DNA from: Oscillospiraceae bacterium
Lineage (GTDB): Bacteria; Bacillota; Clostridia; Oscillospirales; Oscillospiraceae
Direction: 5' to 3'
DNA length: 34,857 bases
Assembly: GCA_022792555.1 (NCBI GenBank)
Contig: JAAWBF010000079.1
Location: 1 to 34,857, forward strand
Both the position numbers and the translations under genes were made by a program. How positions within the stretch are numbered: position 1 is the first letter of the stretch; each line of letters starts with the position of its first letter. Positions 14,325-27,437 of this stretch are shown here, piece after piece. A model generated the notes under the pieces. The model searched no databases, was not told the DNA's origin, and saw only the letters and a list, made by a program, of their open reading frames with translations.

Positions 14325-14419
14325 GATAGCAATCCGCAAAAACAAGGACAGTCAATTGTTTCCCCCCTCCCAGGAAGGGAGGGGGGAAACGGTGTCAGCA
14401 ATTTTGGAGCGTACTATCG
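14325..14419 (+). repeat. ~95-bp hairpin/MITE-like repeat, copy A
   Basis: GATAGCAATCCGCAAAAACAAGGACAGTCAATTGTTTCCCCCCTCCCAGGAAGGGAGGGGGGAAACGGTGTCAGCAATTTTGGAGCGTACTATCG; central 14-bp hairpin; collinear with copy B. Confidence 0.8.
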
Positions 14420-19953: not shown

Positions 19954-20949
19954 ATGAACCTTGTTTATCTAGAAAGTTCCCGTACCGACCCCGCCTTTAA
20001 CCTAGCCTTAGAGCAGTATGTTTATGACCAAATGCCCCGGGATCGCTCCTACTTTATGCTGTGGCAGAACGACAATGCAATCATTGTCGGTAAGTACCAA
20101 AATACGGCCGCCGAGATCAACGCGGCCTATGTCAAGGAGCACGGCATCAAAGTCATCCGCAGGCTCTCCGGCGGCGGCGCGGTTTACCATGACCTGGGTA
20201 ATATCAATTTTACTTTTATCACCGATGCTGGGGTCAACGAGGGAATTGACCTGCAGGCGTTCTGTATTCCAGTGGTCAAGGCCTTGGAACACCTGGGGAT
20301 ACATGCTGAGATCTCAGGCCGTAACGATATCACCATTGACGGCCAAAAATTCTCTGGCAACGCCCAATACGTCAAGCAGGGCCGTATTATGCACCATGGA
20401 ACGATTATGTTCGACTCCAATCTTTCCGTGATGGCCTCCGCCTTGAATGTCCCCAAGGATAAAATCGAATCCAAGGGTATCCAGTCGGTCCGCAGCCGTG
20501 TGACCAATGTGAAGCCCTATGTCAAGGGAGACTTGGATATTGCAGGTTTCTGGTCGGTACTCAAGACCTATATGGTAGAGGAACGTCATTTGGAACAGCA
20601 TACCTTCACCCCCCAGGAGATCGCCGCCGTAGAAGCTCTGCGGGATCAGCGGTACAATACATGGGATTGGAACTACGGCCGCTCTCCCCGCTACAGCATT
20701 CAGAAAGAGCGCCGGGTAGAGGGCTGTGGTAAGATCGAGGTCTGCTACGCGGTAGAAAACGGGGTTATCACCGCTTTCACCGCCTATGGCGACTTCTTCA
20801 GCGGCGGAGAACCAGAAGAGCTGGCCCAGCTCCTCATCGGCTGCCATCCAGAGGAGGCCGCTCTGCTGGCCGCCCTGGATGGTGTTTCGGTGGATTACTA
20901 CTTCAAAAATCTGACCCGAAAGGAACTGGTAGACATCATTCTCCAGTAG
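19954..20949 (+). CDS. lplA: Lipoate-protein ligase
   Basis: RRLSGGGAVYHDLGNINFTFI, NDITIDGQKFSGNAQ motifs; start after AAGGAGA. Confidence 0.93.
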   Translation: MNLVYLESSRTDPAFNLALEQYVYDQMPRDRSYFMLWQNDNAIIVGKYQNTAAEINAAYVKEHGIKVIRRLSGGGAVYHDLGNINFTFITDAGVNEGIDLQAFCIPVVKALEHLGIHAEISGRNDITIDGQKFSGNAQYVKQGRIMHHGTIMFDSNLSVMASALNVPKDKIESKGIQSVRSRVTNVKPYVKGDLDIAGFWSVLKTYMVEERHLEQHTFTPQEIAAVEALRDQRYNTWDWNYGRSPRYSIQKERRVEGCGKIEVCYAVENGVITAFTAYGDFFSGGEPEELAQLLIGCHPEEAALLAALDGVSVDYYFKNLTRKELVDIILQ

Positions 20950-21310
20950 TATTTTCTCTGCGAAATAACTCCCGGAGGCCAGTATAGAGGAGAAATCCAC
21001 CAAAGCAACGGCGGAGAAGCTCTACCTCTAGTCCGGTAGCCACCCATGCGGCCAGCCCCGTCCCCGCCAAGCCAGTCAACACTGCGGGAAGGACCGCTTT
21101 CTTGTCTACAAATCCCTGCTTCCAGTGGGTAGGCAGAGAGGCGGCCGCTGCGGGAAGGAAGTAGAGCAGATTAATTCCCTGGGCTTGTGTCTGAGGGACA
21201 CCGGCCCAGGCCGTCATATAGAGGAGGAGCAGGGTCCCACCTCCCACGCCAAAGCCGGATAAAATGCCTGTCGCCCCGCCGGCCAGCAGGGAAATAAACC
21301 ACTCGTTCAA
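20936..21310 (-). CDS. TauE/SafE (TSUP) family half-size membrane protein, second half
   Basis: LNEWFISLLAGGATGILSGFGVGGGTLLLLYMT...; TTG start overlaps the stop of the upstream gene (TTGA). Confidence 0.8.
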   Translation of the reverse strand: MNEWFISLLAGGATGILSGFGVGGGTLLLLYMTAWAGVPQTQAQGINLLYFLPAAAASLPTHWKQGFVDKKAVLPAVLTGLAGTGLAAWVATGLEVELLRRCFGGFLLYTGLRELFRRENTTGE

Positions 21311-21666
21311 AAGAATAACGCCTTGACCCCGCCATAGAGGACCAGTAGAGCAAAGCCCCGTCTCAGCCAGGGAAGCTTGACCCGACGGAACAGCTTCCCA
21401 CCTGCAAAGCCCCCTACAAGCCCCCCTGCCAGATAGGGGAGCGCTGCCCCCAGATCCAACGCTCCCCGCGCCGCATATATGGTGGCAGACAGGGTACACA
21501 GGGGCAGGATAATGGCGATTGAGGTGGCAAAGGCCCGGCGCTGATCCAGGCCGCACCACCCTGTAAGCAGCGGCACCAAGATCATCCCGCCACCCCCTCC
21601 GAAAAATCCGTTGGCCAGCCCAGTGGCCCCCCCTGCTACGGCGCATCGAACCCATCGTTTTTGCAT
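21307..21666 (-). CDS. TauE/SafE (TSUP) family half-size membrane protein, first half
   Basis: MQKRWVRCAVAGGATGLANGFFGGGGGMILVPLLTGW..., ~119 aa. Confidence 0.83.
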   Translation of the reverse strand: MQKRWVRCAVAGGATGLANGFFGGGGGMILVPLLTGWCGLDQRRAFATSIAIILPLCTLSATIYAARGALDLGAALPYLAGGLVGGFAGGKLFRRVKLPWLRRGFALLVLYGGVKALFF

Positions 21667-21669
21667 CAA

Positions 21670-21716
21670 ATATCCCTCCCTGGTCTGTCAAAAACAGTTT
21701 GTCCAGGGAGGGATAT
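21670..21716 (-). promoter_or_regulatory. 5' leader hairpin sequestering the Shine-Dalgarno of the TauE/SafE pair
   Basis: Perfect 14-bp inverted repeat ATATCCCTCCCTGG...CCAGGGAGGGATAT; SD AGGGAGG lies in the 3' arm ~9 nt before the ATG. Confidence 0.65.
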
Positions 21717-21804
21717 CCTTATCCTAATGATACGTCAAAAAAAAGAATGTCCTTCTTCGACATGCTGGTACTGTATGACTATGCTATCTTACTGAATAGG
21801 CACA

Positions 21805-21999: not shown

Positions 22000-22031
22000 A
22001 ACGGTTAATATGGATCATCCAATAGAGCAGT

Positions 22032-22063
22032 AAGGCCAGCACCCGATTGTGGGTGCTGGCCTT
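22032..22063. terminator. Strong hairpin terminator
   Basis: aaggccagcaccc-gattgt-gggtgctggcctt perfect 13-bp stem; downstream agactgtcaaaaaaa. Confidence 0.75.
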
Positions 22064-22276
22064 AGACTGTCAAAAAAAGCCTCGCAGAGTTCAAAAGTCA
22101 AATTCGTTTTCCGTGGCGGCATATACGGCGGGGAAAACACATCGATAGCCCGATGTCCCTGCCAATTTTATACCGCACTCCGCTTTGCTGCTTAACTGTC
22201 CATATTTGCATTTTCATTCCGCTTTTTCAGCTTACCTTTGTCCTTTTTTGCGGAAAGGACCCAACCGGACGTTTTC

Positions 22277-27403: not shown

Positions 27404-27437
27404 CCCTGCCTGGAGGCGCATCTGCCTCCAGGCAGGG
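27404..27437. promoter_or_regulatory. Perfect 14-bp hairpin between MaoC and SLC13 genes, no T-tract
   Basis: ccctgcctggaggc-gcatct-gcctccaggcaggg. Confidence 0.65.

Follow-up and report, generated by a model that had tools for sequence, protein, structure and literature searches.

The minus strand of the window (the whole stretch of 34,857 nucleotides that was analyzed) encodes two adjoining TauE/SafE half-proteins preceded by a hairpin, around which a sigma-G promoter is predicted (Table 1). An earlier note on this DNA had claimed a perfect 14-bp hairpin with the Shine-Dalgarno (SD) sequence inside its 3' stem, and both features are present. The hairpin spans 21670–21716, with arms of 14 nt each that are 100% complementary and lie 19 nt apart. 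The minus-strand RNA folds at -37.1 kcal/mol (z = -4.41; none of 200 dinucleotide shuffles was equally stable), and the predicted fold extends the stem by approximately two flanking pairs. A further pairing described within the loop, CTGT with ACAG, also exists, but comprises just 4–5 bp, with the CTGT side lying partly in the predicted -10 box.

Table 1. Features of the tauE locus, in window coordinates
Feature	Position	Strand	Remarks
tauE-2, second TauE/SafE half-protein (PF01925)	20936..21310	-	overlaps the end of tauE-1
tauE-1, 119-aa TauE/SafE half-protein (PF01925)	21307..21666	-	ATG at 21666-21664
Hairpin 3' arm, part of the predicted sigma-G leader	21670..21683	-	inverted-repeat and folding analysis
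SD, AGGGAGGG	21674..21681	-	within the 3' arm
Predicted transcription start	21688..21689	-	6-7 nt past the -10 box, from usual promoter geometry
Predicted sigma-G -10 box, CAAACTG	21695..21701	-	in the hairpin loop; family consensus CANACTA in loop
Hairpin 5' arm, the promoter spacer	21703..21716	-	perfect complement of the 3' arm; pairing retained between species
Predicted sigma-G -35 box, GGATA	21720..21724	-	family consensus GNATA 17-18 nt upstream of the -10 box

The window contains four perfect 14-bp inverted repeats, the other three, with short loops, being located at 22031–22064, 14358–14390, and 27404–27437. Since such repeats are not unique in the window, conservation is needed as the deciding evidence. 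The hairpin sequence occurs once in the window's genome, the only genome representing its genus, and the stem is not followed by a T-run, unlike in many relatives. A 14-aa open reading frame (MSKKDILFFDVSLG; 21719–21763, minus strand) stops at the predicted -35 box; it has no clear SD and probably occurs by chance. In a search with a TcdA query, 54 of 90 tauE loci had tcdA as the adjacent upstream gene in the same orientation; no tcdA lies upstream in the window. A frequent gene order, all on one strand, is foldase (PrsA-like)-tcdA-tauE-1-tauE-2 (locus L018 and many other tauE loci).

Conserved pairing and conserved boxes at tauE loci

Relatives of tauE-1 are found in 218 of the 401 genomes sampled from the family, and the upstream regions of 90 orthologous tauE loci were compared. 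A hairpin that buries the SD in its 3' arm lies directly 5' of the start codon in approximately 70 of the 90. The earlier note had proposed covariation across orthologs as a check, and compensatory stem changes are indeed found. In the 17 loci of equal geometry used for covariance model R1 (a MAFFT alignment of 27 loci had gaps through the stem), 11 of 20 stem pairs are changed on both sides. The covariation score of these loci is 0.34, compared to 0.156 for shuffled and at most 0.12 for slid alignments; because these loci are relatives of one another, the shuffles exaggerate the significance, a fault from which the slid control is free. The spacer also pairs preferentially with its own leader. 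The duplex energy is -23.6 kcal/mol for native partners and -15.4 kcal/mol for swapped partners, and the native pairing is better in 74 of 83 loci. At least 12 spacer bases are paired in one register in 65 of 83 loci, compared to a fraction of 0.59 of the swaps; this count separates only weakly because the SD complement is common to all loci, whereas the duplex-energy test does separate.

Named relatives that carry the element include Flavonifractor, Pseudoflavonifractor, Intestinimonas, Flintibacter muris, and Evtepia gabavorous; beyond the Flavonifractor-Evtepia group, the element also occurs in some Clostridiales MAGs and in Agathobaculum. The promoter is retained with a weak hairpin at certain loci of the Butyricicoccus type and of Clostridiaceae. 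Some tauE loci lack the hairpin or the boxes (L104, L106, L110, L112, L120, and L121, among others). The tauE leaders of L011 and L239 (Flavonifractor sp. An10) retain the SD side of the hairpin, but the two promoter boxes are gone, as is the 5' arm.

Only two unpaired stretches are conserved across the tauE loci: GNATA, which directly precedes the 5' arm, and CANACTA, which lies in the loop. They are 17 nt apart in 17 of the 90 loci and 18 nt apart in 36, compared to approximately 0.1 for each spacing in shuffled sequences. We take GNATA and CANACTA to be the -35 (GHATR) and -10 (CATNMTA) boxes of sigma-G promoters. Boxes of this form, 17–18 nt apart, are found family-wide at tauE loci, and an identical pair occurs upstream of spoVAC in the same genomes, which provides an independent control. 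In the window the arrangement is GGATA-18 nt-CAAACTG, one base from the commonest form at -35 and two bases at -10. A preQ1-like or loop-pseudoknot structure had also been entertained and was discarded once the loop was recognized as a -10 box. The leaders of SASP genes fit the box scan poorly and no hairpin was seen in them, and the strict promoter pattern by itself is not enriched genome-wide. The consensus sequences of sigma-F and sigma-G overlap, and a contribution of sigma-F is therefore possible. The sigma-G consensus of Clostridium difficile is reported to be very similar to that of Bacillus subtilis (PMC3789822).

Leaders of other sporulation genes

By gene content, the organism from which the window derives looks like a sporeformer, its genome containing spoIIAA-AB-sigF, SASP, spoVAC, and ypeB. 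A sigG gene was not found in the assembly, which is 86% complete; the best match scores 161 bits, compared to approximately 400–440 bits in most relatives, where sigG is near full length. In five genomes of one genus (G118, G022, G182, G271, and G393), sigG is in two pieces approximately 6–7 kb apart. In G118 (L165, G118:C12:256500-264300), the intervening DNA carries a large serine recombinase gene adjoining the 3' piece, together with ThiF, ferredoxin-like, and Fe-ADH genes, an arrangement that resembles a skin-like element in sigG.

Covariance model R1, which was built from tauE leaders only and is blind to gene function, was run over the 401 genomes. Its strongest matches are nearly all tauE leaders. 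Of the 61 matches inspected away from known tauE genes, L056 and L319 turned out to be additional tauE genes, and 18 precede sporulation-type genes, namely TepA/ClpP-like (five), spoVAC (four), ypeB (four), and one each of spoVAD, sigG, spoIIP, DUF421, and TrxB-like. The genes behind the matches were named by family searches on representatives and otherwise by sequence resemblance. Most of the remaining matches are ordinary terminators without boxes. R1 favors box-containing hairpins, so the enrichment of boxes among its matches is partly built in, whereas the gene functions are not. When sigG leaders are read directly, the SD is often buried; in ypeB leaders it is buried in approximately half of 23 genomes (eight by the automatic box picker and four by eye); and spoVAC leaders are mixed, with 6 of 25 below -20 kcal/mol in spacer-leader duplex energy.

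The same kind of promoter-hairpin precedes two kinds of small open reading frame, one of 45 aa (MKIWEPRKKNN...) and one of 49 aa (MKKGPNNLPWE...), all on the minus strand (L316:1389-1523, L149:945-1079, L334:1338-1484, and L337:1363-1509). Neither kind has a Pfam or NCBIfam match, and both are possible unnamed spore proteins.

It seems reasonably probable that insulation by a promoter within a hairpin is a regulon-wide device of many sigma-F/sigma-G genes in the Oscillospiraceae and their relatives, by which forespore proteins would be made only from forespore-initiated RNA. With similar assurance, the genes covered would be the tauE pair, spoVAC, spoVAD, ypeB, sigG, spoIIP, the TepA/ClpP-like, DUF421, and TrxB-like genes, and the two unnamed small open reading frames, each with a spacer that can pair with its own SD. 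A search of open-licence papers, a scope that makes for a weak negative, found no report of a promoter in a hairpin used across many forespore genes.

A predicted forespore promoter inside the hairpin

By far the best reading of the locus, and in our judgment a highly probable one, is that a forespore (sigma-G) promoter lies within a hairpin that sequesters the SD and acts against read-through. The layout is of the spoIIIG type, with the -10 box in the loop, the 5' arm upstream of the -10 box, and the SD in the 3' arm. Sigma-G RNA polymerase in the forespore would start in the loop and produce a leader of approximately 22 nt without the 5' arm, on which the SD would be free and from which both TauE half-proteins would be made. 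Transcripts entering from upstream, from tcdA in most relatives, would contain both arms and form the hairpin that hides the SD; where a T-run follows the stem, as in many relatives, the hairpin may also terminate transcription. The spacer would serve as an anti-read-through insulator that restricts the TauE pair to the forespore. In predicted folds, the probability that the window's SD is unpaired is approximately 0 in read-through RNA and 0.66–0.74 in sigma-G RNA, and predicted SD accessibility is greater in sigma-G RNA at 53 of 56 loci, at a moderate absolute level (median 0.39). Computation shows that the hairpin is there and covaries, that the boxes and the distance between them are conserved, and that SD exposure is predicted. 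We infer that sigma-G is used, where transcription starts, that read-through is blocked, and that TauE acts in the forespore.

The hairpin could instead serve the upstream gene as an intrinsic terminator and simply overlap the SD of the next gene, the promoter being incidental or absent. In many relatives, a T-run does follow the stem, and tcdA lies just upstream in the same orientation. However, the hairpin is retained in 17 of the 33 loci without tcdA, and it thus tracks tauE rather than tcdA; the window itself has no T-run. A terminator also needs neither CANACTA in its loop nor GNATA at a fixed spacing, and the ordinary terminators matched by R1 lack the boxes. This explanation is considered unlikely.

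The earlier note had proposed that translation is off by default and that an effector is needed to open the hairpin. The first part of this proposal agrees with the near-zero SD exposure predicted for RNA with both arms, but the second is not supported. A -10 box is predicted in the loop, and 18 nt separate it from a predicted -35 box; on sequence grounds, transcription should thus start in the loop, the very circumstance that the note had named as speaking against its proposal. Because a sigma-G start in the loop omits the 5' arm and so exposes the SD, no ligand, thermosensor, or antisense RNA would be required. A riboregulator under effector control, whether a riboswitch, an RNA thermometer, or a hairpin opened by a protein or antisense RNA, would account for the strength and covariation of the SD hairpin and for the conserved bases in its loop. 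Yet those bases that are conserved without being paired form promoter boxes, spaced as in a promoter, and the hairpin is common to genes of differing functions, all sporulation genes, that belong to no single metabolic pathway. In addition, Rfam covariance models gave no match at the gathering threshold in the window and only sub-threshold chance matches at the loci (E<=1). A riboregulator is therefore very improbable. The note's other suggestion, a palindromic DNA operator to which a regulator would bind, would suit a dyad that overlaps a promoter, but is hardly credible given that the stem differs between species while complementarity persists, that it differs even within a genome whose genes share the promoter boxes (tauE, L010, and ypeB, L333, in G077; spoVAC, L156, and ypeB, L360, in G069), and that the conserved center is asymmetric.

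With a forespore promoter in the hairpin, an apparent orphan riboregulator becomes a readable developmental promoter, and the split TauE/SafE transporter of a large group of gut bacteria is predicted to be a forespore protein. The arrangement also supplies a rule with which to search for forespore genes in uncultured Clostridia, that of sigma-G boxes 17–18 nt apart with a spacer complementary to the SD. If the device is regulon-wide, it would show a way to hold compartment-specific expression tight despite common read-through, and the spacer, usually thought free to drift, would be selected as an RNA that is absent from the productive transcript. As a caution, conserved, covarying hairpins that contain the SD are not necessarily riboswitches.

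Comparison with known systems

A similar device operates in phage T4 for the late genes e, soc, and 49, whose SD is buried by a hairpin of the early read-through RNA; the late promoter starts inside that hairpin and frees the SD. The T4 genes differ from the tauE locus in belonging to a phage, in using another sigma factor, and in having unrelated sequences.

For the gene pair itself, the comparison is with C. difficile. DUF81 is the former name of PF01925 (TauE). In C. difficile, CD0793-CD0792, an operon of tandem DUF81 membrane-protein genes, belongs to the sigma-G regulon; in a sigG mutant, the transcriptome showed a fall of CD0793-CD0792 expression to 0.33 and 0.43, and qRT-PCR showed a fall of CD0792 to 0.01 (PMC3789822). 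Both species would thus have two adjoining DUF81/TauE genes under sigma-G, by prediction in the present case, a likeness of family and regulon.

The closest parallel in layout is the leader of B. subtilis sigG (spoIIIG), where it was proposed that a hairpin of 20 or more bp blocks the ribosome binding site and stops read-through from spoIIG, and that RNA from the gene's own promoter cannot form the hairpin (PMC5942855). The tauE leader is similar in that the spacer region of its predicted forespore promoter can pair with the region of the SD. It differs in preceding a TauE/SafE pair, in its stem sequence, and in the T-run that often follows the stem; the tauE-type element is, moreover, conserved across many genera and common to several other forespore genes. 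The same logic has already been proposed for B. subtilis sigG, and what is possibly new is its regulon-wide extent.
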